Source: Rhizobium rhizoryzae
Lineage (GTDB): Bacteria > Pseudomonadota > Alphaproteobacteria > Rhizobiales > Rhizobiaceae
Length of the DNA stretch: 64,000 nucleotides
NCBI RefSeq assembly: GCF_011046895.1
Contig: NZ_CP049249.1
Location: forward strand, 124,001 to 188,000
Direction: 5' to 3'
Positions within the stretch are counted from its first letter, which is position 1. Every line of letters begins with the position of its first letter. The notes beneath the pieces were generated by a model. That model did not search any database, was not told where the DNA came from, and worked only from the letters and a program-made list of their open reading frames with translations. Both the position numbers and the translations under genes were made by a program. Shown here piece by piece: positions 18,179-43,991 of the stretch.

Positions 18179-18204
18179 GATGTCACCTGTGAATGGGTAG
18201 AAAA

Positions 18205-18228
18205 GCGGGCGCTTGGATCAGCGCCCGC
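18205..18228 (-). terminator. Intrinsic terminator/attenuator after the binding-protein gene
   Basis: Perfect 8-bp GC stem (GCGGGCGC/GCGCCCGC) with an 8-nt loop, followed leftward by TTTTC. It lies between the substrate-binding-protein gene and the downstream ThDP, ATPase and permease genes. Partial termination here would give the excess of binding protein over membrane subunits commonly seen in ABC importers. Confidence 0.65.
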
Positions 18229-18236
18229 GCCAAGCC

Positions 18237-19163
18237 TCATGGGGCAATCAAACCGGCAGTGTCGATCTTGCTCTTCAGCATGCCGCCTTCGCGCATTGCC
18301 TTGTCGAGGTAGTCGATGGCTGCGACGGTCGGCACCGGCTTGCATTCCGGAAGTTCGATCTTGCTTAGAACTTCGAGCGGCAGGCGGGTATACTTGGAGA
18401 CGATCTCCCGCGTCTTGTCCTGATTCTTGCCAATGAAGTCAGCAGCCTGTCCGAAGGATGTGCGGAAGGCAGCGATTGTGGCCGCGTTTGCCTTTGCCCA
18501 CTCCCGGGTCGTTACGAAGGTCGTGTAGGGAATATCTGCCGGAAGATCCGACATGAAGTGGAAGGCAATCTTGCCATTTGACTGGGCGACGGCGCGTCCG
18601 AGGGAAGGTTGTCCCGCAATGATGGCGTCGATGGTTCCACCCTTCAGGACGTCAGCAGTATTCGGAATAGGGACTTCTATGAAGGTAATGCCTTTGTCCG
18701 AAACCTTCTTCTGCTTCAGCCACTGGCGAAACAGAATATCGAGCGTTCCACCGATGCTTGGAGTGCCGATCTTCTTGCCAAGCAGATCTTCCGGTTTGTC
18801 GATGGCAACACCTTCGCGAACGGCGAGGCCGACGTTCTTGGCCGTGCGAGGCGAGGTCACGCCGCAATTGGCGACGACCACAAGGTCAATTCCGCTTTCT
18901 ACCGCCTGCAGCATCACAGTCGGCGAGACGGCAACGATCTGATGCGAGCCCGCTACGAGTGCAGCGACGAGCGTCTGGTTTGATCCCGTCGGCAGGAACT
19001 CGACTTGAAGGCCGTTCTTCTCGAAGAGACCTTCATCCTTGGCCACGAAGGCGGCCTCGACTTCGGCAATCGGCGGTGTGCCAATTGCAATCTTCGTCTG
19101 GGCAAAAGCCGGAACCGCTGCGACGGCCAGTGCACCCGCGATCATGAATGCGCGCTTGAACAT
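18237..19163 (-). CDS. ABC transporter substrate-binding protein, SsuA/TauA/NMT1-like
   Basis: A 308-residue periplasmic receptor with a Sec signal (FKRAFMIAGALAVAAVPAFAQ; cleavage near residue 22). The NMT1/SsuA fold is indicated by GLFEKNGLQVEFLPTGS, QIVAVSPTVMLQAVESG and GKKIGTPSIGGTLD. ATG 19163 follows GGAGGAG; the upstream in-frame codons to 19232 fall in the promoter region. First gene of its operon, divergent from a LysR gene. It is paralogous to the receptor at 58348-59295. The ligand is likely an organic anion. Confidence 0.92.
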   Translation of the reverse strand: MFKRAFMIAGALAVAAVPAFAQTKIAIGTPPIAEVEAAFVAKDEGLFEKNGLQVEFLPTGSNQTLVAALVAGSHQIVAVSPTVMLQAVESGIDLVVVANCGVTSPRTAKNVGLAVREGVAIDKPEDLLGKKIGTPSIGGTLDILFRQWLKQKKVSDKGITFIEVPIPNTADVLKGGTIDAIIAGQPSLGRAVAQSNGKIAFHFMSDLPADIPYTTFVTTREWAKANAATIAAFRTSFGQAADFIGKNQDKTREIVSKYTRLPLEVLSKIELPECKPVPTVAAIDYLDKAMREGGMLKSKIDTAGLIAP

Positions 19164-19294
19164 TTTTTTCTCCTCCTGTGCGGGCTCCTCAACCCTTGTC
19201 GCAACTATTCCAGCCGCATTGACTTTCATCAATAGACAGAACGGCAGTTCAGATATAACTTGAAATGCATATCAGGCGACATCAAGGGATATGG

Positions 19295-20221
19295 ATGAAC
19301 CTTCGCAAATGGGAGTATTTCCTGAAGGCTGCAGAACTGGGAAATCTTTCCCGCGTCGCAGAGAAGCTGGATATCTCACAGCCAGCACTCAGCCGACAGA
19401 TTGCGGCACTTGAGCAGGAAGTGGGCGCCTCCCTGTTTCACCGAACTGGCCGTGGTTTGACGCTTACTCCGGCGGGTGAAGTCTTTCGCAGCCGCGCCGA
19501 GGGGATCCTGGAAGAGATTGCTCGGGTTCCTGAAGAGGTTGTGCATGCGGCCAACACGCCATCCGGGCGGCTGGCTTTTGGCGCGCCTCCCTTCATGGGC
19601 CGCATGCTGACTGGCAAGCTGGTGGCGGATTTTCTTGAGAACTATCCCCATGTGCGTCTTCGGGTACGCGGCGCGCATTCGCTTCAACTGCGTGAAGCCA
19701 TCTTCTTTCGAGATATCGATGTCGGCATCCTTGCCGCTCCTTTGACTGAACCCGATCTCCTCATCGAACCGCTGCTGGAAGAGCAACTTTACCTCGTTGG
19801 ACCCGTCGGCTGTGGCTTGCGTTCAGATCGGCCGATCAGCCTTGATGGCGTCGCCGATCGCAAGCTTATCCTGACACCGCGTCCGGATGGACTGCGCACC
19901 TTGATCGAGGCGGAGTTCGCCCGTATCGGCCGCAGGGTCAAGGTTGCGGTTGAGACCGAATATGCCCCCATGGATGATCTCATCCGACGCAACGTGGGTT
20001 ATGCGATCATGCCCTTCTGCGGCATGGTCGATTCTCCGCTGACACAGTTTGAATGGGCGCCGATTGATGGTCTCAAGGTGACATGGGTCATCGCTTTGCT
20101 GGGCGCATCCGAGAGGACGCTTGCGGCGCGCTGTCTTGTGGACATGATCAAAACCTTGACATTTGCCAATCTACAGTCCGGGCGTTGGAAGGGTGACTAT
20201 CTGGGTCATCAACCCGCTTGA
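19295..20221 (+). CDS. LysR family transcriptional regulator
   Basis: A 308-residue LTTR: winged helix-turn-helix at about residues 1-60 (NLSRVAEKLDISQPALSRQIAALEQEVG) and a LysR_substrate effector domain. ATG 19295 follows AAGGG and places the HTH at the standard distance; an upstream ATG at 19265 is less likely. It is divergent from the ABC/ThDP operon (131 bp apart) and by LTTR custom should control it with a pathway intermediate as coinducer. Confidence 0.92.
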   Translation: MNLRKWEYFLKAAELGNLSRVAEKLDISQPALSRQIAALEQEVGASLFHRTGRGLTLTPAGEVFRSRAEGILEEIARVPEEVVHAANTPSGRLAFGAPPFMGRMLTGKLVADFLENYPHVRLRVRGAHSLQLREAIFFRDIDVGILAAPLTEPDLLIEPLLEEQLYLVGPVGCGLRSDRPISLDGVADRKLILTPRPDGLRTLIEAEFARIGRRVKVAVETEYAPMDDLIRRNVGYAIMPFCGMVDSPLTQFEWAPIDGLKVTWVIALLGASERTLAARCLVDMIKTLTFANLQSGRWKGDYLGHQPA

Positions 20222-22936: not shown

Positions 22937-23704
22937 CTACGACAGGATTGCGACAGCACGGCACCAACCAGCAGATCCGCCCTTGATCTTGACGGGGAGA
23001 CAGGAGACCGTAAAGCCGGATGGCGGCAATTCCTCCAGCCGTGTCAGCTTTTCCATGTGCATGAAAATGCCTTCCCGCGCCGCTTTGTGGCCTTCCCATA
23101 TCAGTCCGGCATCCCCGGTTTCAGCGAAGCGCTTCGCGGTTACGGGGAAGGGCGCATCCCACGACCATGCATCCGTTCCCGCAATGTGAATGCCCTTGTC
23201 CATCAGCCAGTGCGTCGCAGCCCGTCCGATGCCGCATCCACGACCCAGAAAATCCGGACGTCCATAGGCTGCGCCCGCCGCTGTGTTGATCAGAACGATA
23301 TCGAAGGGCTGCAGGTCATGGCCGCTTGCCTTGACGGCAGCCTCGATATCCTGTGCGGTCGCCACATAGCCATCGGGCAGATCACGCAGATCAAGCTTGA
23401 CGCCGGGGCGAATACACCAGTCGAGTGGTACTTCATCGATGGTCCAGGCTTTCTCGCCGTTGTTCATGGTCGATGCGAAATGCCAGGGTGCGTCGAGATG
23501 CGTCCCTGCATGAGCGGTCAGATTGAGTTGCTCGACCGCCCAACCCTCGCCACCGGGTACATCGGCAATATTGAGGCCTGGAAAGAAGCGAAGAACTTCG
23601 GCGCTGCCTTGTGCGTGACCGGTATAGTCGATCCGGGGGCCGAGGCCCGGCGGATCCGCCGGAACATCATTTTCAATGGCTACAGACAGGTCAAGTATCT
23701 TCAT
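22937..23704 (-). CDS. Cyclase family protein (PF04199, kynurenine formamidase-like)
   Basis: Metal-dependent hydrolase of 255 residues. The family motif HxGTHxDxPxH is present as HAGTHLDAPWH, about residue 66 onward. The family hydrolyses N-formylkynurenine, isatin or cyclic amides/lactones. It is the last gene of the operon that starts at 31192, 3 bp from the SDR gene. A clear paralog is at 57507-58286 (shared DPPGLGP, DGYVAT/DGHVVT, SWDAP and AGWCR). The job is probably to open a cyclic intermediate, inferred from family and context. Confidence 0.88.
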   Translation of the reverse strand: MKILDLSVAIENDVPADPPGLGPRIDYTGHAQGSAEVLRFFPGLNIADVPGGEGWAVEQLNLTAHAGTHLDAPWHFASTMNNGEKAWTIDEVPLDWCIRPGVKLDLRDLPDGYVATAQDIEAAVKASGHDLQPFDIVLINTAAGAAYGRPDFLGRGCGIGRAATHWLMDKGIHIAGTDAWSWDAPFPVTAKRFAETGDAGLIWEGHKAAREGIFMHMEKLTRLEELPPSGFTVSCLPVKIKGGSAGWCRAVAILS

Positions 23705-23707
23705 TGA

Positions 23708-24625
23708 TCAAACTCCTGAAAATGCGGCCTGCGCCAGCGTGTCTACGTTGGCATCGGCGCGAAAGCCGCGTGAGAATGCCTGGCTCGCATCAAGATGAGG
23801 CATACTGCCGAAAATCCGCTGGAGAGCATCATTCCTGCCGTAGGAAACGAGTGGCCGGCGGCCAGCGACGCGCATTGCGGCCTCGACAACCTCTGCGACA
23901 GTCGCCCTGAGGGCAGGCGGCTGGATGATGCATCCCTCGGTGGCCGCCAGTCCTGCGGCGTGCAGAAGAGTACCGACTGCCGCGTCTCTCGACATCCACC
24001 AGCAGGTGCTCTCTGCTGGCACCGGGCATTCGAAAGGCTCGTTGGCCCGGATCCTGTGGAAAAGCTGGCTCATGAAGGCAGAGCCATGCCCGCTCTCCGA
24101 CTGCGGTCGGGCTACAATCCCGGGAAAACGGATGCTTATGGTGGACAGTGCGCCGCGTCTCGTCATGTCCGACAGCATGATCTCTGTCATCAGCTTGTGT
24201 GCGCCGTAGGTCAGCTGCGGATGACATGGGGTATCGGGATTGACGGTGCGGGACGCAAGATCTCCATAGACCGCGATGGAAGACGCAAACACAAATCGGG
24301 TGCCAGCGTTCCCCGCCGCCAGCCTGTCTGCCAAAGACAGGGGCGCCATCAGATTGACGCGATGGCCGAGTGCCTGATCCTGCTCGGCCCGGCTTCCGGG
24401 AATGCTTGCGAGATGAAAAACCAGATCGAAGCCGGATTGAGTGAGTTCATCCAGAAACGATGGATCTCCGAGATCTCCAGGCTTGAAATCCATGAAATCT
24501 GGACAGGTTTCGGATCGCCCGAGGTCAGTCAGCGTGATCTTGTCCGCACGATTGTTTCTCGCCGCCAGCGCGTTGACCAGTCCGCGCCCCAGAAAGCCGT
24601 CGGCGCCTGTCACGAGAATACGCAT
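23708..24625 (-). CDS. NAD-dependent epimerase/dehydratase (DenD-like SDR)
   Basis: Extended SDR of 305 residues. It has the Rossmann motif TGADGFLG near residues 6-13, FHLASIPGSRAEQD, the serine region FASSIAVYGD, and the active-site YGAHK (YxxxK). The overall pattern resembles D-erythronate dehydrogenase (DenD) proteins. Start ATG overlaps the FAH stop (TGATG), so both are coupled. In this operon it may oxidise a hydroxy acid left after ring opening, but a nucleotide-sugar role cannot be excluded from sequence alone. Confidence 0.82.
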   Translation of the reverse strand: MRILVTGADGFLGRGLVNALAARNNRADKITLTDLGRSETCPDFMDFKPGDLGDPSFLDELTQSGFDLVFHLASIPGSRAEQDQALGHRVNLMAPLSLADRLAAGNAGTRFVFASSIAVYGDLASRTVNPDTPCHPQLTYGAHKLMTEIMLSDMTRRGALSTISIRFPGIVARPQSESGHGSAFMSQLFHRIRANEPFECPVPAESTCWWMSRDAAVGTLLHAAGLAATEGCIIQPPALRATVAEVVEAAMRVAGRRPLVSYGRNDALQRIFGSMPHLDASQAFSRGFRADANVDTLAQAAFSGV

Positions 24626-25602
24626 CAGCCTTTTGCCACGGTCTGGTCAATTATGCCGAAGGGTGCCGAGCCATCCGGCATGCGAGCTTCCATGCGTATC
24701 CGGTCACCCCAGGTCAGGAAGGGCGTTCGTGACGCACCTTCATCAAGGAGCTCTATCACCCTGATTTCCGAAATACAGGAGGAACCCGCTTCGCGATCCG
24801 CGTTCGAAACCGTGCCGGAACCCAGAATGGTACCGGCAGACAGCCGCCGTGTGCGTGCGCAGTGCGCAATCAGTTGGCCGAATGAAAAGTGCATCTCGCT
24901 TCCGATTGCTCGTCCGACGTTCCGCTCGTTTATTTCGACATCCAGTCTGAGGTGAATTCGTCCATCGGACCAATAGTCCCCCAGTTCGTCCGGCGTGATC
25001 GCCACTGGCGCGAAGGCTGTGGATGGTTTTGCCTGAAGGAAGCCAAAGCCAGCACGCATTTCCCGCGGACCAAGCGCTCTGAGCGACCAGTCGTTGATCT
25101 GTACAAGGAGCCGCACGTGTTGAAGCGCCGCATCTGCCTGTGTTCCCATGGGTACATCCGACAGAATGACGCCGAACTCCCCTTCCATGTCGATGCCCAG
25201 CCCGTCATCCGGGAAATGCATGGGTCCGAGCGGACCGCGCAGATCGTCGCTGGCGCCTTGGTAGATCAGGGGAATTTTTTCAAAATCGGGATTGTGAGGA
25301 TTGTCGAAGGCCTTGTCCATCAACCGCCCATGGTTCAGGAAGGCTGACGCATCGAGCCATTGCGGCGCACGCGGCAAGGGTGCAAGGCAACGCCCGGCGT
25401 CGAATGGCGTTGCGAACGGTTCCTGTCCCGCGTTCAGGCGATCGGACAAAGCCTGTAGCGCTGGGTGCACAGCATCCCACGTTTCAATCGCATCAATCAT
25501 GGTACCGGCGATGGCCGTCGCCGGAACGGCCCGATTGAGATCACGCGAAACGACCCAAAGTTGACCGTCGCGTGTTCCGTCATGGTATGTCGCAAGCTTC
25601 AT
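24625..25602 (-). CDS. Fumarylacetoacetate hydrolase family protein (long form, first paralog)
   Basis: A 325-residue FAH-family enzyme with an extra N-terminal domain, as in true fumarylacetoacetases. Metal ligands: EGEFGVIL (E-x-E) and an Asp in VQINDWSLRALGP; the GSGTVSNAD turn follows. It is strongly paralogous to 56507-57484, same length, with shared LAPLPRA, QINDWSLRA and GSGTVSNA. Such enzymes hydrolyse fumarylacetoacetate-, fumarylpyruvate- or maleylpyruvate-like ring-fission products. Operon neighbours: cupin upstream, SDR downstream. Confidence 0.9.
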   Translation of the reverse strand: MKLATYHDGTRDGQLWVVSRDLNRAVPATAIAGTMIDAIETWDAVHPALQALSDRLNAGQEPFATPFDAGRCLAPLPRAPQWLDASAFLNHGRLMDKAFDNPHNPDFEKIPLIYQGASDDLRGPLGPMHFPDDGLGIDMEGEFGVILSDVPMGTQADAALQHVRLLVQINDWSLRALGPREMRAGFGFLQAKPSTAFAPVAITPDELGDYWSDGRIHLRLDVEINERNVGRAIGSEMHFSFGQLIAHCARTRRLSAGTILGSGTVSNADREAGSSCISEIRVIELLDEGASRTPFLTWGDRIRMEARMPDGSAPFGIIDQTVAKG

Positions 25603-25665
25603 GTCGAACGAGATCCTGCTGTAGCGGCTGAAGGTTTGAAGGATTTCAAGTCGGGCATACCGGCT

Positions 25666-26247
25666 TCATCGAATTGCCAGTTTCGCGGCCAGCTCCGGGT
25701 CGTATGAACCAGCGACAAGGACGAAGAGCATGCGGCAAGGCTTGCCCGAACGGTTGGCCCAGGCATGATTGGTGCCTCGCTGGACAACGACTGAACCCGG
25801 CTTCAGCAGCACTTCACCCTCATCGAGAACAAGGGTCATTTCACCCTCGATAACGATGCCGTAGTCGATCGATTCCGTCCGGTGCATCAGGGGATGCGGT
25901 GAATCGCCCTTGACGGTGGACGCTGCCTTGTCGCCAATCTGGTCGAAAGCGTCTTCCATCCGGGAGGCCCCGTTTCTCAGAAACTCTTCCGTATCCGGAG
26001 GAATATCGACAAAGCGAATCCGGGTTCCACCAGGCGGTGGTGGCAGTGACAGCGGTCCAAGGCTTGGATCCGGACCATTGTCGACCGGGGCAGGCGCCCC
26101 TGACGTGGCCCAGACTTCATGAAACAGCGTGCCGGGGATGGCTGCAATCTCGACTACGGTCGGCAGGGAGCCCTGTTCCCAGATGACCGAGCGGCCGTCC
26201 GGTGCATGTCCGGTGACGATCCTGGTGATCGAAGGGAATGCACTCAT
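25666..26247 (-). CDS. Cupin-domain protein
   Basis: A 193-residue single-cupin protein. The barrel is in the C-terminal half: HRTESIDYGIVIEGEMTLVLDEGE, then NHAWANRSGKPCRM, a form common in uncharacterised cupins of aromatic-degradation operons. The first cupin motif keeps one His and a Glu; the second keeps one His. Start ATG overlaps the MFS stop (ATGA). It could be an isomerase, dioxygenase or ligand-binding protein; function unknown. Confidence 0.8.
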   Translation of the reverse strand: MSAFPSITRIVTGHAPDGRSVIWEQGSLPTVVEIAAIPGTLFHEVWATSGAPAPVDNGPDPSLGPLSLPPPPGGTRIRFVDIPPDTEEFLRNGASRMEDAFDQIGDKAASTVKGDSPHPLMHRTESIDYGIVIEGEMTLVLDEGEVLLKPGSVVVQRGTNHAWANRSGKPCRMLFVLVAGSYDPELAAKLAIR

Positions 26248-27389
26248 GCCGTCTTTACCTTCAATGCTGCGCCTGCTGACCGGGCAAGCGTGAAGCAGGT
26301 GATGGAACTTGCCGCCACGAGCACCGCAGCAACACCCAGGGCACCGAAGCCAAGGTTTTCACCCAGAACACCTCCGACGATCGGACCGAGTGCGGCACCA
26401 ATCATCAGCATCGCAGGCGTTGCCGCCGCCGCGCGTCCCGTCGGGTCCAACTGAGACAGAAGGCCGAAGACGAAGGTATGCGTGAAAATCTGCACGGCAA
26501 CGAAAACGGCTGCGGCTGGTGCCCAGATCTGGAATGCTGTCGCCGAGGTGACGAGGATAGCCAGTACAGCCTGTACCGCGGGACCGATCTGCGTCACCAA
26601 CGGTGCCGACACACGGTTCTGCAGGAATGTCGCCAGCGGTGCGGGGAACAGGAAGTTCACGAACCCAAGCGCAATCAGTACGCCAAGGACATGTGCCGCC
26701 TCAAAGCCACGAGATTTGCCGATGACTTCCACGAAGGAAAACACCATGGCCTGATTGAACGTCATGATACTGATACCGAGGATCGTCAGCCAGATGACGC
26801 GATTGAACGGCTTCTTCTCGTGCTCGGTAATGCTCGTGGGGTTCCGGAAGAACAGCGCCGCTACCACTGCCGCGACCGCCATGATGCCACTGAAGACCTG
26901 AAACAGCACCGGTCCGCCGCGTAGGATGAGCAGTTGCGGCACTGCTGCGAGAAGGATGATTGCAAACAGGCCAAGTGCCATGCCGGCAATGGCAAACAAG
27001 CGGTGAGGATTAACACTCTGTCCCATGACGCCGTGCACCATGGACAGTGCGGTCCCAACGGAAACGCCTGCTGCAAGGTGCGCAATTGCCAGCGTGGAGA
27101 ATGAGGTTTGGGTGGACGCATAGAGGAAGATGGCTGCCGTTACAGCAAATCCGCCCACCGTCAACACCTTCTGGTTCAGACCGTTGAAGCGCGCTGCCGT
27201 GAACATGCTGGCAGCAACGGCACCCAGCAGGAAGAGTGTCGCGAGGGTACCTGACTGCTGCGGGCTGAAACCGAAGCGCTCGACAAGCGCTCCGACCCAA
27301 ACCGGCAGCGCAACGAGATCAAGCATCCCTGCGCAGTGGCCAATGACGAGTGCCGTGGCTCCAGCAACGCCGAATTTTTGTCCTGACAT
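26244..27389 (-). CDS. MFS transporter
   Basis: A 381-residue major facilitator permease with about 12 hydrophobic segments, probably a proton-coupled importer or exporter of the operon's substrate. ATG 27389 is preferred because GGAGGAG stands five bases upstream, versus a start at 27407. It overlaps the downstream cupin gene by 4 bp and follows the FAD monooxygenase gene by 83 bp. Substrate is not readable; context suggests an aromatic acid. Confidence 0.85.
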   Translation of the reverse strand: MSGQKFGVAGATALVIGHCAGMLDLVALPVWVGALVERFGFSPQQSGTLATLFLLGAVAASMFTAARFNGLNQKVLTVGGFAVTAAIFLYASTQTSFSTLAIAHLAAGVSVGTALSMVHGVMGQSVNPHRLFAIAGMALGLFAIILLAAVPQLLILRGGPVLFQVFSGIMAVAAVVAALFFRNPTSITEHEKKPFNRVIWLTILGISIMTFNQAMVFSFVEVIGKSRGFEAAHVLGVLIALGFVNFLFPAPLATFLQNRVSAPLVTQIGPAVQAVLAILVTSATAFQIWAPAAAVFVAVQIFTHTFVFGLLSQLDPTGRAAAATPAMLMIGAALGPIVGGVLGENLGFGALGVAAVLVAASSITCFTLARSAGAALKVKTA

Positions 27390-27472
27390 TATGACTCCTC
27401 CAGTCAATGATGATCCGCCGGGGGGCTTGGGCGCGCGGTCTCCTCAGCCGCGGCACCGGCGTAAAATTTGTC

Positions 27473-28603
27473 TCAAATTGCTTCTGCGAGTGTTTTCATC
27501 GACACTTGCATGATGGATGCATGCTCTTCACGGCTGCCGCCCTTCACCTCGATGTCCGCGAGGCGGCCGGAATTTTCGACTACCATGCGACACCGTTCCC
27601 AACGGCGGGCTTCGAAGGCTTCCAGGGCAGACAATGCATTGTTGTGGCGCCCCAATTCTTGCGCCAGCACCATCGCGTCCTCGATGCCGATACAGGCGCC
27701 GGCTGCGAGGTGCGGAGTGGTCGCGTGAACGGCGTCACCGATCAGCACGACGCGACCTTTCGACCATGGACGCGGCAGCAGCATCTGCTCCAGTGGCCGA
27801 TAAATGATGTGATTTTCCGAAGAAAGTTCTGCTGCAATGTTACGAATGAGGGGCGATGGGAACCGCTCCAGAAGCGCGCGCAGCGTTTCCACGAAGGTCT
27901 CCGGTGCCACGAAATCGTTTGTTTCCCGGTCTTCCGTCAGGAACAGATAGACTTGCTCCCTGTTGACCCCGTTAAGGCCGACCTTGAGTTTCGGGCCCAT
28001 CCACATGGTTACCGTATCGATCTCAGGCGGCTTCGGCAGAACGGCGCGCCATACGGATTGACCGATGAAGCGCGGCTTCGGGGCATTTTCAAAGAGTCTC
28101 GCGCGGACTGCCGAGTACAGACCGTCTGCTCCGATTACCAGATCGTAGCGACCCACAGACCCATCGTTGAAAGTGACCTGAACGCCATCGTCATCCTGGT
28201 TGAACTCGGTGAAGGTTACCCCGAGCCTGACATTGACCGATGATGAACGGACCGCTGCGGAAAGGATACCGGCAAGCGCAGGACGCATGATGCCGCCACT
28301 GCCTGGAATATCCGCACCGGCCACGCGAGGGGTCGGAATGCGCATGATAACGCTATCATCGGCTCCCCGAATGGCGAGGCCATCGCTGGCATAGCCTTCC
28401 TCCAGGAAGCGTTCGATCAGGCCAAGATCCTTAAGGACACGCAGGGTGGAGCCGTGAAGGCTGATGCCTGCGCCGTAGGAACGCCATCCAGCGTCAATCT
28501 CGGCCAGATCGACCTCAAAGCCGTGACGGGACAGCTGCAGCGCGGCTGTCATTCCGGCGAAACCGCCGCCGATGACCAGTATCTTCTTGATTCCGGAATT
28601 CAT
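27473..28603 (-). CDS. FAD-dependent monooxygenase, salicylate-hydroxylase-like (first paralog)
   Basis: Class A flavin monooxygenase of 376 residues. The FAD motif GGGFAG is at 12-17, YDLVIGADGLYSAVR carries the DG motif, and VLIGDAVHATTPHLAAG the GD motif. Size and pattern match salicylate or 6-hydroxynicotinate 3-monooxygenase-type enzymes. ATG 28603 overlaps the Rieske gene stop (ATGA) with GGAGGAG upstream. Paralogous along its whole length to 38030-39154. It would hydroxylate, possibly with decarboxylation, the ring that the nearby VOC dioxygenase opens. Confidence 0.9.
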   Translation of the reverse strand: MNSGIKKILVIGGGFAGMTAALQLSRHGFEVDLAEIDAGWRSYGAGISLHGSTLRVLKDLGLIERFLEEGYASDGLAIRGADDSVIMRIPTPRVAGADIPGSGGIMRPALAGILSAAVRSSSVNVRLGVTFTEFNQDDDGVQVTFNDGSVGRYDLVIGADGLYSAVRARLFENAPKPRFIGQSVWRAVLPKPPEIDTVTMWMGPKLKVGLNGVNREQVYLFLTEDRETNDFVAPETFVETLRALLERFPSPLIRNIAAELSSENHIIYRPLEQMLLPRPWSKGRVVLIGDAVHATTPHLAAGACIGIEDAMVLAQELGRHNNALSALEAFEARRWERCRMVVENSGRLADIEVKGGSREEHASIMQVSMKTLAEAI

Positions 28604-28995
28604 GTTTCTCCTCCTTCGCGTGGCGGGATGACGAAAACGTCACCGGCCTGGTCCACCGCGATTTCAATGCGTGTCAGCCTCTGTCCCAGACATGGGCCCA
28701 GAATGCATTCTCCCGTGTCCATCTCGAACAATGCGTTGTGGGAATGGCAGGTGAGATGGGTGCGCTCGCCATTCAGGTATGCGTCGATTTTCCAGGCCAT
28801 CGGTGTCCCGGTGGAATAATGCGGGCAAGCGTCGAGCCAGGCATGCAGGGTTCCGTTTCGTCTCACGACGATGATCTTGCGTCTGAAGCCCGTCAAAGGA
28901 CCAAAGCCCTTTGCCTCCCCCTCCTGCACCTCTGCTGAATTGCAAAGATGCAGGCCTTCGGGCGTGTCCTGTGATTGGATCGTGGCAATCGGCAT
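28600..28995 (-). CDS. Rieske [2Fe-2S] domain protein
   Basis: A 131-residue soluble Rieske protein. Cluster ligands are C57-x-H59 and C83-x-x-H86; the gap between them (23 residues) is longer than the 15-17 usual in ferredoxins. No catalytic domain and no membrane anchor. It is coupled by ATGA to the FAD monooxygenase and lies 30 bp after the VOC dioxygenase gene. No Rieske oxygenase alpha subunit or ferredoxin reductase is visible in the window, so its partner is unclear. It might deliver electrons to, or reactivate, the dioxygenase; this is inference. Confidence 0.88.
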   Translation of the reverse strand: MPIATIQSQDTPEGLHLCNSAEVQEGEAKGFGPLTGFRRKIIVVRRNGTLHAWLDACPHYSTGTPMAWKIDAYLNGERTHLTCHSHNALFEMDTGECILGPCLGQRLTRIEIAVDQAGDVFVIPPREGGET

Positions 28996-29025
28996 GGAAA
29001 TACCCGCGTTGTCCTCTCGTGCCGC

Positions 29026-29973
29026 TCAGAGCTTGGCACCGGGAGGAGGGCCACCGCCCGGTGCCCATTTCTCACGATATTCGAACAGGACGATCTGCGA
29101 TGCCTCCGCTCCGTTCTGGGCTTCGCGCGCAACCCAGGTATCGTCGTGCTTGTCCATGTCGGCGTCGTATTCGAAATGACAGCCCAGCGGACTGTTGAAG
29201 TACCAGAACCAGTTCGATCCGAACTTGTGACGCCCCGGACCCCAGAAGCTTTGGAAACCCTTCTTCATGAAGCGCGTACCGGCCACCATGAGCTCGGTGG
29301 GACCGCCCATGTGGAAGGCGAGATGCTCGCAACCCTTCATATAGTCCGGTGTCCGGATGAAGAAGAGTGTGTGATGGTCATCATTTGCCTTTGGTCGAAG
29401 GAAGGGGCCAGCGCCGGTGAGAATGTCCGTCACGACGAAACCCAGGCGCTCGCAGTAGAATTTCTCAGCGATTTCAATATCCGGTACAAACAACACGACG
29501 TGGCTTAGCGTGCGTGGGAGAGCCGGCATTTCTTCCCAGACGCCCAGTTCATTCGGTCCGCGCTGCGCAGGCGCACCGGGTGCGTTGATCTTCTCTGCAG
29601 GCATGTCTAGTTCGCGGCGGACCGTAACCTGAAACTTGAGCTCGAAGCCGTGATCATCCTTTACTTCGATAGATCCATTCGACAGTCGGGTAACGCGCCG
29701 ATCCTTCCCAAGCTCTGCCTCGATGGCGTCGAGATCTTCGGTAGACTTTACGCCATAGACCTGCTGGCGCAGCATGTTGGACGTCGGAAGTGGTGGTGGC
29801 AATGACGGGTCGGACTTATGCCGAACAATGACGCCGGTGCCATCAAGTGTTTCAAAAAGCCCGCCCTTTTCGGTCACATCGACCGGCTTCAATCCCCATG
29901 CCGTCAGAAATTCGGTGGCAGCTGCAACGTCGTCGACTCCAAAGACCAGATAATCAGGACCCACAATATTCAT
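29026..29973 (-). CDS. VOC-family extradiol dioxygenase
   Basis: A 315-residue two-domain VOC protein. The C-terminal domain holds the likely iron triad H158 (LSHVVLF), H217 (CEHLAFH) and E268 (HFEYDADMD). The N-terminal domain keeps the fold but not the metal ligands, as in catechol 2,3-dioxygenases. ATG 29973 (NIVGPDYLVFGV) is chosen because the domain begins there; upstream in-frame codons to 30141 overlap the hydrolase gene. Second gene of the operon. Likely opens the ring hydroxylated by the FAD monooxygenase at 27473. Confidence 0.88.
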   Translation of the reverse strand: MNIVGPDYLVFGVDDVAAATEFLTAWGLKPVDVTEKGGLFETLDGTGVIVRHKSDPSLPPPLPTSNMLRQQVYGVKSTEDLDAIEAELGKDRRVTRLSNGSIEVKDDHGFELKFQVTVRRELDMPAEKINAPGAPAQRGPNELGVWEEMPALPRTLSHVVLFVPDIEIAEKFYCERLGFVVTDILTGAGPFLRPKANDDHHTLFFIRTPDYMKGCEHLAFHMGGPTELMVAGTRFMKKGFQSFWGPGRHKFGSNWFWYFNSPLGCHFEYDADMDKHDDTWVAREAQNGAEASQIVLFEYREKWAPGGGPPPGAKL

Positions 29974-30028
29974 TCTTCTCACTCCCCGTTGGCGGACCTG
30001 AAGTCCGCCCTGTAGATGTTGCAGATGC

Positions 30029-31192
30029 TCAGCCGGCGGTCGTGGAACCGCCAAGGACTTCCGCGACCCAGTCGGCGATGTAGGCCCCGGCATTGGCTGA
30101 GTTATCGAAGCTGGAATGCTGGACGCCACCGGTCCGCTCATCGAAGATCTTCAACTCGCGCTTTGGGCTGTTGACCAGCTGATCATAGGTTGCGTGCGCC
30201 CACTGAAGCGGGATCTGGCTGTCCTTTTCGCCATGGGTGACGAGGAAAGGCACCCGGATCCGGTCGAGAATCCCGTGCAGGTGCACGTTTTCGGCAATCG
30301 CCATGAAATCATCGATGTCCTTTGCGCCCCAGACCCACATCACGTGGCTCCAGTAATGCGGAACAGGAAAATTGCCTTCGCGAGCAAGGCGCTTCTTCTG
30401 GACATCTCGCCAGTCGTGGTTGGCACCCCAGACGACGCCACAGGCGAAGCGGGGCTCGAAAGCCACGGCGCGCGGGCAGTAGTAACCGCCAAGGGAAACG
30501 CCTTCCATGCCGATACGTTTGGCATCCACTTCCGGTCGGGTCTCCAACCAGTCTACCACGCGGCTTGCCCAGTGTTCGCTGTCGAAACGCGCTGTCATGT
30601 CATGCAGACGCAGGGCCTCGCCCGTGCCCGGCTGATCCACGATCAGAGAGGCAATGCCACGCTTGGCCAGCCAGGCCGGAAGACCCACAAGGAGTTTCAT
30701 CTCCTTTGTACTGTCGAGGCCGTTGACCTGGACAAGCAGCGGCTGCGGCCCCTCCACACCTTCAGCAGGCACATAGAGGGCTGAAAGATGCTTGCCTTCG
30801 TAGGGAATTTCCACGCGCCGACAGGTGGACCCGGACAGCTTGAGCCCCTTCTCGAAAGCGGCAAGGAAACGCTGGTAAAGGGCGAGACGGCCCTCCGTCC
30901 CATGGGCAAGAAGTCGTTCGGCGGTCAGCATGTAGTTGGATGCGCGGATGAGCTTGTCACCGGCCGAGATCAATCGCCCGCGTGCCTCGTCCTCCTCCGC
31001 AAGGGAAACGAGCTTGTCGGCCATCTTGATCCAGGTCTCGCGAAAGGCCTGTGTGCCGGCTGCATCAGGCGCCTTTGCTGCTTCCTGCAGCGGCGCGCAC
31101 ATTTCTTCGATCTCTCCCATACGGGCACCCATCTCGATCGAAAGATTGACCGAAAGGTTCCACACGTAATTGGTCGGAAAGTACTTGAACAT
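30029..31192 (-). CDS. Alpha/beta hydrolase, FrsA / 2,6-dihydroxypseudooxynicotine hydrolase-like
   Basis: A 387-residue hydrolase with a helical N-terminal part (about 1-120) before the alpha/beta core. Triad: S233 in GVSLGG, D324 in GEKDSQIP and H359 in GVQHSSF. This architecture matches the group containing 2,6-dihydroxypseudooxynicotine hydrolase, a C-C bond hydrolase of nicotine catabolism, and FrsA-like proteins. ATG 31192 follows GAGGAG. It is the first gene of the operon, divergent from LysR. Related to 35725-36867. C-C hydrolysis of a ring-derived 1,3-dione is plausible. Confidence 0.82.
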   Translation of the reverse strand: MFKYFPTNYVWNLSVNLSIEMGARMGEIEEMCAPLQEAAKAPDAAGTQAFRETWIKMADKLVSLAEEDEARGRLISAGDKLIRASNYMLTAERLLAHGTEGRLALYQRFLAAFEKGLKLSGSTCRRVEIPYEGKHLSALYVPAEGVEGPQPLLVQVNGLDSTKEMKLLVGLPAWLAKRGIASLIVDQPGTGEALRLHDMTARFDSEHWASRVVDWLETRPEVDAKRIGMEGVSLGGYYCPRAVAFEPRFACGVVWGANHDWRDVQKKRLAREGNFPVPHYWSHVMWVWGAKDIDDFMAIAENVHLHGILDRIRVPFLVTHGEKDSQIPLQWAHATYDQLVNSPKRELKIFDERTGGVQHSSFDNSANAGAYIADWVAEVLGGSTTAG

Positions 31193-31376
31193 ATCATCTC
31201 CTCGAAAGCGCGAAGTGCGGCGCACCCATCTGCAGGAGGGCAGTCGAGCCGCGATGCACACGGCAGCGCAGCGACCACTTATCCTCCCGGCCCGAGATGT
31301 AGCGAAAAATAAACTGTTTACAAAATTGCTTCTCTGAATGATTTGTATTTACGTTGTGAATGTCTGGGAGGGCGTC

Positions 31377-32303
31377 ATGCGATTCAAGAATCTCGATCTA
31401 AACCTGCTTGTTGCACTCGATACGCTGATACAGGTCCGGAATGTGAGCCGGGCTGCCGAAGAGATGTTCATCACCCAATCAGCCATGAGCAATGCTCTCG
31501 GACGACTTCGGGATTACTTCGATGATCCGTTGTTGATACAGGTCGGTCGCACGATGGAACTGTCGCCATTGGCGACGTCGCTTGCGGAACCGTTGCGGGA
31601 TATCATCGTCAGGATAGAGGCTGCAGTCGTCTCCACCCCATCCTTTGTCGCGGGTGAATCTACGCGCATCATGAGCCTGATCGTTTCGGATTATTCTCTC
31701 AGCACCATCATGCCGGAATTCCTGAGACTGGCATCCCGATCAGCGCCGTTCATGCAGTTTCAGTTCAAGCCGCAGCAGAATTATCCTCATGTGCTGCTCG
31801 AACGGGGGGAGGCTGACCTGCTGATCGCTCCGACGCTTTTCTGTTCGACCAACCATCCGTCGGAGGTTTTGCTCGAGGATGATCTTGTGTGTCTGGTCGC
31901 AACCAATGGTCCATTTGCCACCGCTGATCTGACGGAAGAGATTTTTCAGAGCCAGGGGCAGGTGGTGATGCAGCCGCCGAACGGAGGCGAGAGCTTTGCG
32001 CAGCGCGTCTGCACGCAGGCCGGCATCAAGATCCGGGTCGAGGTATCCACCTATTCCTTTGCGTCGATTCCACTGCTTGTTGCTGGCTCCAGCCGATTTG
32101 CGATCGTGCAACGGCGTCTGGGTGAGGCGTTCGCATCAATGGGTGATGTGAGGATCGTGCCGTCGCCTGTCGCTCTCCCAAAACTGCAACAGTCCTTGCA
32201 GTGGCACAGTTACCGAACCCGCGATCCCGCTCTTGTCTGGTTGCGGGAACAACTGCATTCCGCAGTACAGGCCATGACTGCAAGAGCAAATGGAACAGGG
32301 TGA
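31377..32303 (+). CDS. LysR family transcriptional regulator (NodD/NahR-like start)
   Basis: A 308-residue LTTR. The opening MRFKNLDLNLLVALDTLI is characteristic of the NodD/NahR/LinR branch, whose members answer to flavonoids or aromatic acids. The HTH spans residues 18-40 (VSRAAEEMFITQSAMSNALGRL). ATG 31377 follows GGGAGGG. It is divergent from the nine-gene operon ending at 22937. The 184-bp promoter gap holds an AT-rich stretch with ACAAAAT and ATTTGTA elements (about 31320-31347) that could be its site. Confidence 0.9.
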   Translation: MRFKNLDLNLLVALDTLIQVRNVSRAAEEMFITQSAMSNALGRLRDYFDDPLLIQVGRTMELSPLATSLAEPLRDIIVRIEAAVVSTPSFVAGESTRIMSLIVSDYSLSTIMPEFLRLASRSAPFMQFQFKPQQNYPHVLLERGEADLLIAPTLFCSTNHPSEVLLEDDLVCLVATNGPFATADLTEEIFQSQGQVVMQPPNGGESFAQRVCTQAGIKIRVEVSTYSFASIPLLVAGSSRFAIVQRRLGEAFASMGDVRIVPSPVALPKLQQSLQWHSYRTRDPALVWLREQLHSAVQAMTARANGTG

Positions 32304-32654
32304 AAATTAGAGTATTAATGTATTCATCCAAAAAATACCAAGCATTACAAATGTGGATTTTACAATTTATACCAAATTAAATAGGCAAGGTAGAGGGATG
32401 AGCACGTACTGATTCTCAATTGTATGTGTATCGGGGACGTAATTTAGTGATGCCGGAATCGTTGCTTGTGGCAACTGTGAAGGTAACATGATTTGCAAGT
32501 CATGACAGGACTTGGAGCCGTGCGCGCAATGCTATGCGCTGCGGCGTTCAATCATGCGCTTTTTCGTTTTCGTGGCCGGAATGGTCAGTGCGTCTACCAC
32601 TGTCGACGCAGTTACGTGGCGTGATCATCCATTGTTTTGTTGAGGAGGAATGGA
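32304..32654. other. 351-bp AT-rich gene-free stretch
   Basis: Holds no convincing coding sequence. The first half is markedly AT-rich compared with its surroundings. A small hairpin GTTGC-TTGTG-GCAAC sits at 32461-32475, followed by an imperfect palindrome ATGATTTGCAAGTCAT. The right end carries the GAGGAGGA site of the outer-membrane protein gene. The promoter of that gene must lie here. Confidence 0.5.
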
Positions 32655-33554
32655 ATGAGCAAAAGACATATCTTCAAATGCCTCGCCCTTGCTGCCCTGA
32701 TGTCGAGTTCGGCGGTCGGCGCGGTGAAGGCGGCGGAGAATGGTAATACGCAGTATGCACCGGGTTCGCCCCAGTTTTACGCCGGTGGTATTCCTCCCTT
32801 CCCGGGGCTCTATTTCCTGTCCCAGACCAGTTACTACGCATCCGACCGGACAAACGATTCCAATGGAAACGAGGTGCCGATCAAGTTCAAGGTCAATTCG
32901 CTCGCTGAGACGATGCGTTTTCTCTACATCAGCGATCTCAAGATTGCCGGTGGTGACGTCTGGGGGCAGTTGGTCGTTCCGCTGGTTCGCCTCGATCTGA
33001 CGCTGCCGTTCGGTCGTGACAAGACCTTCACGCTTGCGGATATGACCGCGACGGTCGGTGTTGCCTGGCATCTCGATCGTGCCAATACTTTCCTGGTCGG
33101 TCTCGACGTTGCCATGCCGACAGGCCCCTACAGCTCTTCGAACCTCGCGAACGTCGGTTTGAACCACTGGTCGTTCCAACCAACGATCGGCTATCACTAT
33201 CTCGATCCTCAGGGTCTTGAAATTGGAACGACGGCTCGCCTCATTTTCAATACTGAGAATGAAAGCACGGATTACCGGACGGGTACCGAATTTGTCTGGG
33301 ACTATGCGATTGGCTGGAACTTCGATAAGTGGCGGGTTGGCGCTGTCGGCTACTACCTGCAGCAGTTGACGGACGACAAGGGGCCTCGTGCGGCCGCTGA
33401 CGGTCACAGAGGCAAGGGCTTTGCCATCGGCCCGTCCATTACCTACACGTTCAATCCTGCAATGCAGATCAGTGCATCCTGGCAGCATGACATCGTGGCG
33501 GAGAACAGATCGCAGGGTGATACGATCTGGCTGAACTTCGCGACCAAGTTCTGA
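32655..33554 (+). CDS. Outer-membrane transporter, phenol-degradation MetA family (PF13557)
   Basis: A 299-residue exported beta-barrel protein. It has a signal peptide (about 1-28, ending AVKAA) and alternating beta-strand patterns with many aromatic residues, ending in a C-terminal Phe (WLNFATKF) as outer-membrane proteins do. The family (MetA/SphA-like) accompanies phenol, sphingosine or hydrocarbon catabolism and is thought to form an uptake channel. ATG 32655 follows GAGGAGGA. It lies between a LysR gene and the TetR/BKACE region, so it may serve either operon. Confidence 0.8.
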   Translation: MSKRHIFKCLALAALMSSSAVGAVKAAENGNTQYAPGSPQFYAGGIPPFPGLYFLSQTSYYASDRTNDSNGNEVPIKFKVNSLAETMRFLYISDLKIAGGDVWGQLVVPLVRLDLTLPFGRDKTFTLADMTATVGVAWHLDRANTFLVGLDVAMPTGPYSSSNLANVGLNHWSFQPTIGYHYLDPQGLEIGTTARLIFNTENESTDYRTGTEFVWDYAIGWNFDKWRVGAVGYYLQQLTDDKGPRAAADGHRGKGFAIGPSITYTFNPAMQISASWQHDIVAENRSQGDTIWLNFATKF

Positions 33555-33591: not shown

Positions 33592-33797
33592 CATCCGTCT
33601 TGAGCTGATCTCAAGACAACCGTATGGTCCTCGCATCCTGCGCTGGGACGAACCAGCTTGGCAATTTTCAAGATTCAGCTGCTGGGGATGGCGGGCTGTG
33701 TCTCCCTCGCTTTTTTGCCCGCCCTCTTGATCATCCGGCGCACGATCGCATACTGGTCAGGCGGTAACCCCGCCAGAGACTGGAATCGAGAGTGACA

Positions 33798-34454
33798 ATG
33801 AAGCGTCAAAGCTTGCGGGAGAAAAACAAGGAAGACAAGCTGCTGCGCATCAAGAATGCCGCTTTCGACCTCTTCCTGTCCAAAGGCTTCGACGATACCA
33901 CAACGCGCGAGATTGCGGCACGTGCTGGCGTCGGCATGGGCACCGTATTCGTCTATGCCGAGACCAAGAGAGACTTGCTGTTTCTCATCGTCAACGATGG
34001 ACTCGAGCGATGCATCGAAGATTCTCGCGCCCGGATCAGCGTTGACAACTCTCTGCTGACCAATCTCCTGATAATCTTGAGGCGGCACTATCACTATTTC
34101 GCCGAGAACCCGGTATTGTCGCGAGCGGCGTTGCGTGAGATGTACTTCTATCAATCCGGCAAGCAGGCAGAACGGTTCAACAGGACGAGGCAAAGTCTGC
34201 GTCATCTGCTGTTCGAACTGATAGAAGATGCCCTTAGAGCGAAAGTCATTTCATCATCCGAGCCGGCGGACATCATCGCCCAGGTCATTTTCGCCATTTA
34301 CCAGGTGGACCTCCGTATCTGGCTTTCTGAGGCGGAACTGGACCTCGATAGTGGAGGGGACAGGTTGAGGCGTCAGATCGAGGTCGTCCTGAACGGGCTC
34401 TCTCCTGCACCCATTGCCTTGGTGATCAACGCGGATGCGCTCGGTCCGGTGTGA
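33798..34454 (+). CDS. TetR/AcrR family transcriptional regulator
   Basis: A 218-residue TetR-type repressor. The DNA-binding domain spans about residues 10-60 (KNAAFDLFLSKGFDDTTTREIAARAGVGMGTVFVYAET); the rest is an all-helical ligand domain. ATG 33798 is used; a GTG two codons earlier is possible. It lies upstream of, and in line with, the BKACE operon and next to the outer-membrane protein gene, either of which it may control. The perfect 18-bp inverted repeat pair at 34685-34747 is a candidate operator. Confidence 0.88.
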   Translation: MKRQSLREKNKEDKLLRIKNAAFDLFLSKGFDDTTTREIAARAGVGMGTVFVYAETKRDLLFLIVNDGLERCIEDSRARISVDNSLLTNLLIILRRHYHYFAENPVLSRAALREMYFYQSGKQAERFNRTRQSLRHLLFELIEDALRAKVISSSEPADIIAQVIFAIYQVDLRIWLSEAELDLDSGGDRLRRQIEVVLNGLSPAPIALVINADALGPV

Positions 34455-34834
34455 TCCAGGGCTGAATCTTCCGCATCGTCACACCTGCGCGTCTCCCCCA
34501 AGCGTGCTGACGCTCCGCGCCTGCCTGCATATTAGCCACTACCAGAAAAGGCTCTGCCGGACGTTACCTGTCCGGGCAGTCTCCTGATGCGACGCCTTAG
34601 GCGGCAGTCTGCCACAAGAGCACTAATTTGCTGCTGCCCATCGCCTGCATTTCCCTGCAGACGGAATTTAAGACAGCACGCAAAAAATTGAGCATGATCA
34701 AATTGACAGGAGGCAGACTCTATGTAATTTTTGATCATGCTCAATTTGCTGATGGAGGTCAGTTTCTGAGCAACCGGATGTGAGGCCGGTTTCGTCCGTG
34801 AATTCCATTGCGCGGACATCGGGAGGACTATTCG
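34455..34834. other. 380-bp gene-free leader of the BKACE operon
   Basis: No convincing gene. The right half carries the inverted repeat pair described separately (34685-34747). Between the arms is an AGGAGG (34708-34713) followed eight bases later by ATG directly joined to TAA (34722-34727). The BKACE site GGGAGG is at 34821-34826. A 29-codon reading frame from 34694 exists but has no ribosome site. Confidence 0.5.
34685..34747. promoter_or_regulatory. Perfect 18-bp inverted repeat pair upstream of the BKACE operon
   Basis: Left arm AAATTGAGCATGATCAAA at 34685-34702, right arm its exact reverse complement at 34730-34747, separated by 27 bp. Each arm is itself nearly dyad-symmetric (TTGA-N6-TCAA). 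The centres are 45 bp apart, close to four helical turns. The layout suits two operators bound cooperatively, for example by the TetR or LysR regulator upstream. If transcribed it would also form a strong stem. Confidence 0.6.
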
Positions 34835-35689
34835 ATGACCGAGACTTTAACGACGGCCAATGGCCGGCGAGGCGTTGCGCTCGCCGTGGCGCCAAACGGT
34901 GGCCGGCACATGAAAGTAGATCATGCTGCGCTCCCCATCACGCCGATGGAGCTTGCAGACTGTGCCCAGGCCTGCCTGCTCGCGGGAGCCAGCATGATCC
35001 ACCTTCATGTGCGCAACGAGGCGGGCCGGCATTGTCTTGACGTGCAACGCTACAGGGCTGCGCTGGATGCGGTACGGACGCGGGTAGGCGATCGGCTCAT
35101 CACCCAGATCACGACGGAATCCCTCGGTTTGTATCAGCCGGTCGACCAGATCGATCTCATTCGTACCCTCCGGCCGGAGGCGTGTTCGATTGCTCTGCGG
35201 GAGATCGCCCCGGATGCGGCGCATGAGATCGGATTTGCATCGCTTCTGGAATGGATGCGACGCGAGCGCGTGTTTCCGCAGATCATTTTGTACGATGCAA
35301 CCGATGTGGTTCGATTGCAGGGGATGCGCCAGAGGGGACTTATTCCAGCGTCTGATATCCCGGTCCTCTTCGTGCTCGGACGTTATACGGCCGGTCAGCA
35401 ATCTGCACCCGGAGATCTGCGCCAATTCATGGCAGTGGCGCGGCAGTCTCCCTTTGCGCACTGGACAGTCTGCGCTTTCGGTCGCGACGAGGCGGCCTGC
35501 GCAGTTGCGGCGGCGCTGCTGGGCGGTCACGTCCGCGTCGGCTTCGAGAACAACTTTCACCTGCCAGATGGCACGGTCGCAGCTGAAAATGCGGACTTGC
35601 TTCGCCCGGTTGCGGGAGCGTTGCAACATCTTGGACGCACTCTCGAAACGGCCGAAAGCCAGCGCGCCGCCTTGGAAGCGATCTGGTGA
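34835..35689 (+). CDS. BKACE-family beta-keto acid cleavage enzyme (DUF849)
   Basis: A 284-residue TIM-barrel zinc enzyme of the 3-keto-5-aminohexanoate cleavage (Kce) family. Such enzymes condense a beta-keto acid with acetyl-CoA and split it into a CoA thioester and acetoacetate. Zinc ligands are H56 and H58 (IHLHVR) and E238 (GFENNFH). The DHAALPITPMEL start is diagnostic. ATG 34835 follows GGGAGG. First gene of the seven-gene operon; it may process an aliphatic keto acid after ring opening. The actual keto acid is unknown. Confidence 0.92.
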   Translation: MTETLTTANGRRGVALAVAPNGGRHMKVDHAALPITPMELADCAQACLLAGASMIHLHVRNEAGRHCLDVQRYRAALDAVRTRVGDRLITQITTESLGLYQPVDQIDLIRTLRPEACSIALREIAPDAAHEIGFASLLEWMRRERVFPQIILYDATDVVRLQGMRQRGLIPASDIPVLFVLGRYTAGQQSAPGDLRQFMAVARQSPFAHWTVCAFGRDEAACAVAAALLGGHVRVGFENNFHLPDGTVAAENADLLRPVAGALQHLGRTLETAESQRAALEAIW

Positions 35690-35724
35690 TGGTGGCGAAA
35701 ACCGAAACGAATGGAGAATTGTCG

Positions 35725-36867
35725 ATGCCGATCACAGTGCAGGCCGGTGGAGAACTTGCCGGACCACGATCATTGGAAAACGCCAAGGAGTGGATGCGCG
35801 ATCGTCTCGCCAAACGTATCCATCCCTTGGGATTGACCGATCCGCAGGCGACTCTCGACACCATTGAGTCGCTGCGTGGTCTGGACGGCGACAGCTGGGC
35901 AAGCGCCTGGATCGGTACTGCCAATCGCTTTCTCGAGAAGGCCGAAACGCAGATGGCGGAAGGAAACACGGCCGCGGCCCGTGACGCTTATTATCAGGCC
36001 TACGGTTTCTTTTTCCTGGGCCGTTTTCCTTGTCCGAACCATCCCGCCAAGGAAGAGGCCTATCGCCTGGAACTCGCGGCCTATGAGAAGTTCGGCGCGC
36101 TTGCCGAGCCGCCAATCGTGCCGGTCGTAGTGCCGTTCGAGGCGGAAAACGCGCTTTCCAACGAGATCCGCTTCTATCTTCGCAAACCTGAGGGTGTGGA
36201 AAAGCCGCCGGTCCTGATCATGTGGGGCGGCGTCGATGCCTGGAAGGAGGAGATGACGGAACTCTCCAACGCACTGGTCGCCCAACGCATCGCGACGATC
36301 GCCATGGACAATGTCGGCACCGGTCAATCGCCGTTGAAAGCTCGGCGGAACGGCGAAATCCAGTTCTTGCCGGTCATCGAATGGGTGCGAGCGAGCGCTG
36401 ACCTCGATGGCAACCGTATCGGCCTTATCGGTCGCTCTTTCGGGGGGCATTGGGCAACGAAGCTGGCCCATCTTATTCCGGAGCAGTTGCGCTGCGCCGT
36501 CAACTGGGGCGGTGGCGTCCATTACATGTTTCAGCCGGAATGGGTGGAGGCCTCCCGCTATCCAGACAGCTATCTGATGGAACTGGTGGAAACCCGCAGC
36601 CGTATGCTGGGCGCGAAGAACGACGCCGAATACGTCGAGGGTTTTCGGGCTCTGTCGCTTCTCGACCAAGAGCTGCTGTCGAAGCCTTGTGCGCCGCTTT
36701 TGCTGGTCAATGGCAAGGAAGACAAGCAGTGCCCCATTGCCGATATCCACTTGCTTCTCGAACACGGCAGCCCGAAGTCCGTCCGGCTTTTCCCCGGCGG
36801 ACACATGGGCTTTGGCCCGCATACCGTCCCCACGATCGTTTCGTGGGTTCGCAACCATCTGACCTGA
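35725..36867 (+). CDS. Alpha/beta hydrolase, FrsA / DHPON hydrolase-like
   Basis: A 380-residue hydrolase with a helical N-terminal part and alpha/beta core. Nucleophile S238 in GRSFGG, Asp in GKEDKQCP, His in PGGHMGFG. It is related in architecture to 30029-31192. I chose ATG 35725 because GGAGAA lies six bases upstream; ATG 35689, which overlaps the BKACE stop as TGATG, is an equally in-frame alternative adding 12 residues. C-C or ester hydrolysis of a ring-fission product is inferred. Confidence 0.8.
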   Translation: MPITVQAGGELAGPRSLENAKEWMRDRLAKRIHPLGLTDPQATLDTIESLRGLDGDSWASAWIGTANRFLEKAETQMAEGNTAAARDAYYQAYGFFFLGRFPCPNHPAKEEAYRLELAAYEKFGALAEPPIVPVVVPFEAENALSNEIRFYLRKPEGVEKPPVLIMWGGVDAWKEEMTELSNALVAQRIATIAMDNVGTGQSPLKARRNGEIQFLPVIEWVRASADLDGNRIGLIGRSFGGHWATKLAHLIPEQLRCAVNWGGGVHYMFQPEWVEASRYPDSYLMELVETRSRMLGAKNDAEYVEGFRALSLLDQELLSKPCAPLLLVNGKEDKQCPIADIHLLLEHGSPKSVRLFPGGHMGFGPHTVPTIVSWVRNHLT

Positions 36868-36883
36868 GGAGGAGGAACACCCC

Positions 36884-39154: not shown

Positions 39155-39157
39155 GCC

Positions 39158-39934: not shown

Positions 39935-40012
39935 GCCGCAGACTTTCACCGCGGACTGGCGTCTTGTCCGGTCCGCACATTGATGAATGCATGGTCATCG
40001 GGAGGGAAACAA

Positions 40013-42296: not shown

Positions 42297-42403
42297 CGTT
42301 TTTGAAGAAACAATGTATTTTTATTGCGATCACGTGCCTGATAACTCCTCTGTGAGCCGCCCCTGTGACCTCCCAAACAGGGGGCAACGATCGGAGAAAT
42401 GCC

Positions 42404-43987: not shown

Positions 43988-43991
43988 ACCG

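Follow-up and report, generated by a model that had tools for sequence, protein, structure and literature searches.

The window that we analysed is a 64,000-nucleotide stretch of Rhizobium rhizoryzae DNA (contig NZ_CP049249.1, positions 124,001 to 188,000 of the forward strand), and within it lies a minus-strand gene cluster, at 22937-31192, that a sequence-only reading had described as a tight leftward nine-gene operon for a ring-cleavage pathway without a described match. The physical part of this description held: all nine open reading frames (ORFs) are open with no internal stops, on the strand and at the coordinates given, and from the alpha/beta hydrolase gene to the cyclase-family gene they follow one another at spacings of 55, 30, -4, 83, -4, 63, -1 and 3 bases, both four-base overlaps being ATGA and the single-base overlap TGATG, in keeping with the couplings already reported. 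The ATG start of the MFS transporter gene is at 27389; the mechanical ORF begins at a TTG at 27407. The domain labels agreed with our domain searches as well, several of them being resemblances that score under curated cut-offs, e.g., the FAD monooxygenase (FMO) reached 97.8 bits against the salicylate monooxygenase model (cut-off 446) and the SDR-family protein 193 bits against the D-erythronate dehydrogenase model (cut-off 325); the sole model that the FMO passes is the subfamily PRK06847 (514.6 bits, cut-off 372). Two genes outside the original list belong to the system, a divergent LysR gene and a Phenol_MetA_deg gene, and with these the complete system is a predicted eleven-gene fde set extending over 22937-33554 (Table 1).

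The fde operon for naringenin degradation was reportedly described in Herbaspirillum seropedicae SmR1 by Marin in 2013 and 2016. We take it to comprise ten genes, fdeA to fdeJ, with the letters other than A, C, D, E and R being assigned by order. A Herbaspirillum genome for comparison was sought through a RecA identical to PDB 5JRJ, identified in a passage of PMC6472873 as the RecA of H. seropedicae; among 260 genomes of the order, the RecA of genome G1232 matched it with 100% identity over 339 residues, the runner-up having 91%. At an E-value of 1e-200 the same query had no match among 398 genomes of family f66, which shows only that this sample holds no near-identical RecA. The single strong VOC match in G1232 sits in an operon holding every gene type of the window system, so that 11 of 11 gene types are matched between the window and one G1232 operon, the nine operon genes near-full-length and with 39-74% identity. 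In G1232 a LysR gene diverges from genes in the order MetA-hydrolase-VOC-Rieske-FMO-MFS-cyclase-cupin-FAH-SDR; this layout agrees with the published fde, as fdeR is divergent there from fdeA, the first gene (PMC10799723). The fdeR-fdeA gap of G1232 (280 bases) has 12 T-N11-A sites with a maximum of eight within 50 bases, and that of SmR1 is given in the same paper as having 14, nine of them within 50 bases; the counts are similar, yet unequal. From these matches, we conclude that the locus is very probably an fde-type operon for aerobic flavonoid catabolism with a divergent FdeR-type LysR activator.

Table 1. Predicted features of the fde-type locus in the window. Identities are of the window protein to its counterpart in the operon of Herbaspirillum genome G1232 unless otherwise named.
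Feature	Coordinates	Strand	Identity, domains and motifs
Cyclase-family metal-dependent hydrolase	22937-23704	-	57%; PF04199; HxGTHxDxPxH motif
SDR/epimerase-family dehydrogenase	23708-24625	-	40%; PF01370
Fumarylacetoacetate-hydrolase (FAH) family protein	24625-25602	-	58%; PF01557 and N-terminal domain 2 PF18288
Cupin protein (Cupin_2)	25666-26247	-	74%; PF07883
MFS transporter, FdeF-type	26244-27389	-	48%; PF07690
Group A FAD monooxygenase (FMO), FdeE-type	27473-28603	-	59% over 376 residues; FAD_binding_3; GxGxxG, GDAxH
Rieske [2Fe-2S] protein, FdeD-type	28600-28995	-	39% over 108 residues; PF00355; CxH...CxxH
Putative VOC extradiol dioxygenase, FdeC-type	29026-29973	-	63% over 304-313 residues; Glyoxalase domain
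Alpha/beta hydrolase, FdeB-type	30029-31192	-	74% over 384 residues; Peptidase_S9/FrsA-like domains; GVSLG serine nucleophile motif
Divergent regulatory region	31193-31337		conserved block around GCAATTTTGTAAAC
LysR-type regulator, FdeR-type	31338-32303	+	44% over 308 residues; divergent from operon
Phenol_MetA_deg protein, FdeA-type	32637-33554	+	33% over 303 residues; PF13557, 220 bits

The claim that the pathway has no described match therefore falls, since all nine genes, the regulator and the MetA-type gene have counterparts in one Herbaspirillum operon with the published fde layout; the pathway is already described, and the difference lies mainly in the gene arrangement in this bacterial group. 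The window shares with the fde operon of H. seropedicae SmR1 all eleven gene types, the divergent LysR gene and the FMO-Rieske-VOC core order, and two blocks, hydrolase-VOC-Rieske-FMO-MFS and cupin-FAH-SDR, run in the same order in the window and the Herbaspirillum operon. It differs in that its fdeA counterpart lies behind fdeR on the strand of fdeR, whereas fdeA heads the operon in Herbaspirillum; in that its cyclase gene comes last rather than directly after the MFS gene; and in having an alphaproteobacterial host, with identities of 33-74%. The sequence-only reading had named full synteny with a characterised operon of known substrate as evidence against its own view, and here the gene content matched but the exact Herbaspirillum gene order was not found, arrangement being something that we did not treat as defining.

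The catalytic motifs predicted for the FMO, Rieske, hydrolase, cyclase and VOC proteins are intact. The VOC protein has distant matches to catechol 2,3-dioxygenase and 2,3-dihydroxybiphenyl dioxygenase models, and its residues H158, H221 and E268 are conserved across 43 aligned homologs. Their spacing is that of the type I extradiol iron ligands, as in BphC. The Rieske protein is presumed to be the partner of the FMO, with whose gene its own has an ATGA overlap. According to passages of PMC8552027, FdeE and FdeD form a hydroxylase pair that acts on C8 as the first step, with fission of the A ring following, and FdeA is a phenol-degradation-type protein; a passage of PMC11303751 gives FdeE as a flavonoid 8-hydroxylase with flavanones, flavones, isoflavones and flavonols as substrates. 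The hydroxylation, extradiol cleavage and C-C hydrolysis of an aromatic compound that had been proposed from the sequence are supported. On the other hand, the match to the fde genes leads us to expect a flavonoid instead of the aromatic or heterocyclic acid suggested at the same time, and, since a flavonoid is expected, the growth panel of acids that had been advised would probably miss the substrate.

Based on these assignments, a flavonoid would enter via the MetA-type protein, presumed to be an outer-membrane channel, and the MFS carrier, and would activate the divergent FdeR-type LysR regulator. The FMO with its Rieske protein would then hydroxylate the A ring at C8 to give a 7,8-diol, the ring of which would be meta-cleaved by the VOC protein acting as an Fe(II) type I extradiol dioxygenase, and the alpha/beta hydrolase and FAH-family protein may split C-C bonds in the ring-fission product, with the A-ring fragment being released. 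The cupin would act on the remaining C-ring pyranone, for the opening or oxidation of which it is a candidate by analogy with the cupins IfcD1 and IfcD2 (in passages of PMC11069340), and the cyclase-family hydrolase and the dehydrogenase may finish the short fragments. According to the papers cited, H. seropedicae carries out both C8 hydroxylation and cleavage of the A ring, and the cupin step is established in Variovorax; for the window proteins we infer all of the steps, including the order of the late ones (those after A-ring cleavage, cupin aside).

The divergent region that would control this system has a block around GCAATTTTGTAAAC that is near-identical across 15 aligned intergenic regions (that of the window and those of 14 other loci), and outside of this block little is conserved, namely a GGAGG-like stretch and a ribosome-binding site. 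This block is probably an FdeR-type operator and promoter. The region also has six T-N11-A matches as a raw count. Passages of PMC10799723 describe FdeR as responding to naringenin, and FdeR-DNA complexes as responding to daidzein as well.

An FMO scan of named genome contigs identified 19 loci, 16 of them alphaproteobacterial (in Rhizobium, Ciceribacter, Peteryoungia, Agrobacterium vitis, Allorhizobium, Roseibium and other Rhizobiales) and three in Pseudomonadaceae. All nine genes are present in the order and orientation of the window in 11 of the 16 alphaproteobacterial loci, so that their association is more than chance; as for the other five, L006 ends at a contig edge, and the tail of the operon is shortened or rearranged in L005, L008, L009 and L012. 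Fourteen of the 16 have the LysR gene divergent from that of the hydrolase, and eight have a MetA-type gene close by, which follows the LysR gene in seven, as it does in the window, and lies elsewhere in the other. The full eleven-gene set, arranged as in the window, is present on a plasmid of Allorhizobium pseudoryzae. Given that the alphaproteobacterial loci keep the gene set, the operon is real and maintained, and the window arrangement is common to these relatives. Among 18 regions from further genomes, six have the Herbaspirillum-type eleven-gene order, an order that is also seen, with an added EthD-domain gene, on a plasmid of Burkholderia anthina. On plasmid p1-AD3 of Roseomonas mucosa (L036 7733-12107) we found hydrolase, VOC (79% identity to that of the window) and FMO genes and no Rieske match, which is a predicted reduced fde-like core.

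Matches were scattered: 14 of 199 Rhizobiaceae genomes had one at an E-value of 1e-120 (the window's own included), and among the three genomes searched of its genus a match was found only in its own. With the E-value set at 1e-60, seven of 398 genomes in a phylum sample matched (own genome included); the corresponding counts were 39 of 398 for family f66 at 1e-90 and, for matches to the FMO, six of 298 for family f44, probably Pseudomonadaceae, at 1e-100. The distribution is patchy, from which horizontal spread is a reasonable inference. In an FMO tree of 55 rows the window protein pairs with that of Rhizobium sp. FKY42 within a 17-row alphaproteobacterial clade (100/99), and that of Herbaspirillum groups with Diaphorobacter apart from this clade.

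Several observations weigh against the assignment to fde. Similarity is weak for the MetA-type (33%), Rieske (39%), SDR (40%) and LysR (44%) proteins, and fdeA and the cyclase gene hold other places in the gene order. G1232 is not strain SmR1, and closely related Herbaspirillum species may have the same RecA. The fork uniting the window clade and the Herbaspirillum group is moderately supported (94/83), so that with its separate FMO clade the window system may have shifted in substrate. Eight of the 18 further regions hold a partial set or another order (L097, L099-L103, L105, L106), four more have no cupin and SDR matches (L091, L092, L095, L104), and the three Pseudomonadaceae loci (L016-L018, L016 being from Stutzerimonas) have an FMO with 57-58% identity without the surrounding operon, two of them with a VOC match ~6 kb from the FMO. 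Due to these Pseudomonadaceae loci and the partial regions, an FMO by itself is no proof of an fde operon; the whole set is. Lastly, the passages of PMC11069340 report daidzein degradation to be unaffected in Variovorax when its alpha/beta hydrolase gene is disrupted, and therefore the hydrolase step may be dispensable or different.

The same source bears on an alternative that we regard as very improbable, that the locus encodes an ifc-type pathway restricted to isoflavones, as found in Variovorax and Bradyrhizobium, rather than the broad or flavanone-directed fde. In passages of PMC11069340 the ifc enzymes of Variovorax sp. V35 hydroxylate daidzein at C8 and proceed via a pyranone to a cupin, the ifc alpha/beta hydrolase resembles 2,6-dihydroxypseudooxynicotine (DHPON) hydrolase, and IfcB and FdeC share 65.8% identity, so that fde and ifc have the same chemistry (C8 hydroxylation, VOC cleavage) and several gene families in common, the cupin and DHPON-type hydrolase families included. 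The daidzein response of the FdeR-DNA complexes noted above points the same way, and in a VOC tree the Bradyrhizobium ifc-type VOC stands beside the window clade, in a joint set with moderate support (88/87). However, the ifc FMO belongs to another clade: that of the window has 59% identity with its Herbaspirillum counterpart versus 36% with a Bradyrhizobium ifc-type FMO (used as a stand-in for Variovorax IfcA), and the latter sits in the FMO tree outside the window and Herbaspirillum groups, its branch being long and of uncertain position. This distance led us to reject ifc as the closest kind. The neighboring genes in Bradyrhizobium also differ, cluster L039 having LysR, VOC, Rieske and FMO genes and, in the stretch examined, no hydrolase, MFS-type, cyclase, cupin, FAH or SDR matches.

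Less probable still, and hardly to be credited, is that an operon derived from fde has turned to a non-flavonoid, such as a 7-hydroxychromone-like compound, an acylphenol or the pyridine acid proposed from the sequence alone: the best solved relatives of the FMO are 6-hydroxynicotinate 3-monooxygenase and others (E-values 1e-21 to 1e-28), that of the hydrolase is the DHPON hydrolase of nicotine catabolism (PDB 2jbw), and the distribution is patchy (14 of 199 family genomes), but the similarity to these solved proteins is remote, whereas every one of the eleven gene types has a counterpart in the Herbaspirillum operon. The likeness to DHPON hydrolase that had been remarked upon is real, with a common hydrolase fold family, but distant (1.7e-19). 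No gene specific to nicotine or pyridine catabolism (molybdenum hydroxylase, maleamate amidase) was found among the eleven by domain, and we know of no role assigned in the nicotine pathway to the ten genes other than the hydrolase. Given that the similarities are no more than distant, we rejected a pyridine or indole acid as well as a nicotine/DHPON pathway.

With fde as the preferred assignment, the supposed unknown pathway is removed and a concrete substrate class, the flavonoids, is predicted in its place, and a full fde set is placed among alphaproteobacterial relatives of Rhizobium, Ciceribacter and Agrobacterium. In such bacteria flavonoids double as nodulation signals. We found no description of fde in Rhizobiaceae in open-access titles, abstracts and passages; those that discussed fde did so for Herbaspirillum, with a related cluster being described in Pseudomonas and the ifc genes in Variovorax and Bradyrhizobium.

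A second ring-cleavage cluster lies next to fde, on the plus strand at 33792-41272, encoding a TetR regulator, a beta-keto acid cleavage enzyme (BKACE), an Ayg1-like C-C hydrolase (matching PDB 8qd7, 8.4e-40), a LigA-like small frame, a LigB-type dioxygenase, an FMO (paralogous to the fde FMO, 41% identity), a PcaD-like hydrolase and an MFS transporter. It is conceivable, though in our view doubtful, that this and fde form one catabolic island, in which fde would act on the A ring and the second cluster on the rest of the molecule or on a second flavonoid-like or acylphenol substrate; if so, the pathway of the second cluster would be undescribed. In A. pseudoryzae the second cluster is ~20 kb from fde. 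On plasmid p1 of Rhizobium rosettiformans (L123 4012-15416) the examined stretch carries it with no fde, and it is joined there by genes for xanthine-dehydrogenase-family (molybdenum hydroxylase) subunits and an amidohydrolase and by CoA-transferase genes, neighbors that hint at a different, perhaps N-heterocyclic, substrate. In Rhizobium sp. FKY42 (L019 2254-4782) the fde operon is intact, and next to it are only fragments of the MFS, PcaD-like, FMO, LigB, hydrolase, BKACE and TetR genes, an apparent case of decay in progress; fde is therefore independent of the second cluster in this strain.

By the far end of the operon, at 16433-20221, domain matches identified a thiamine pyrophosphate (TPP)-dependent enzyme, an NMT1-like solute-binding protein and a divergent LysR gene. 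At 42365-46397 a gene for a proton-pumping-type membrane subunit is followed by a large ORF, the two possibly being a DabAB-like inorganic carbon pair.

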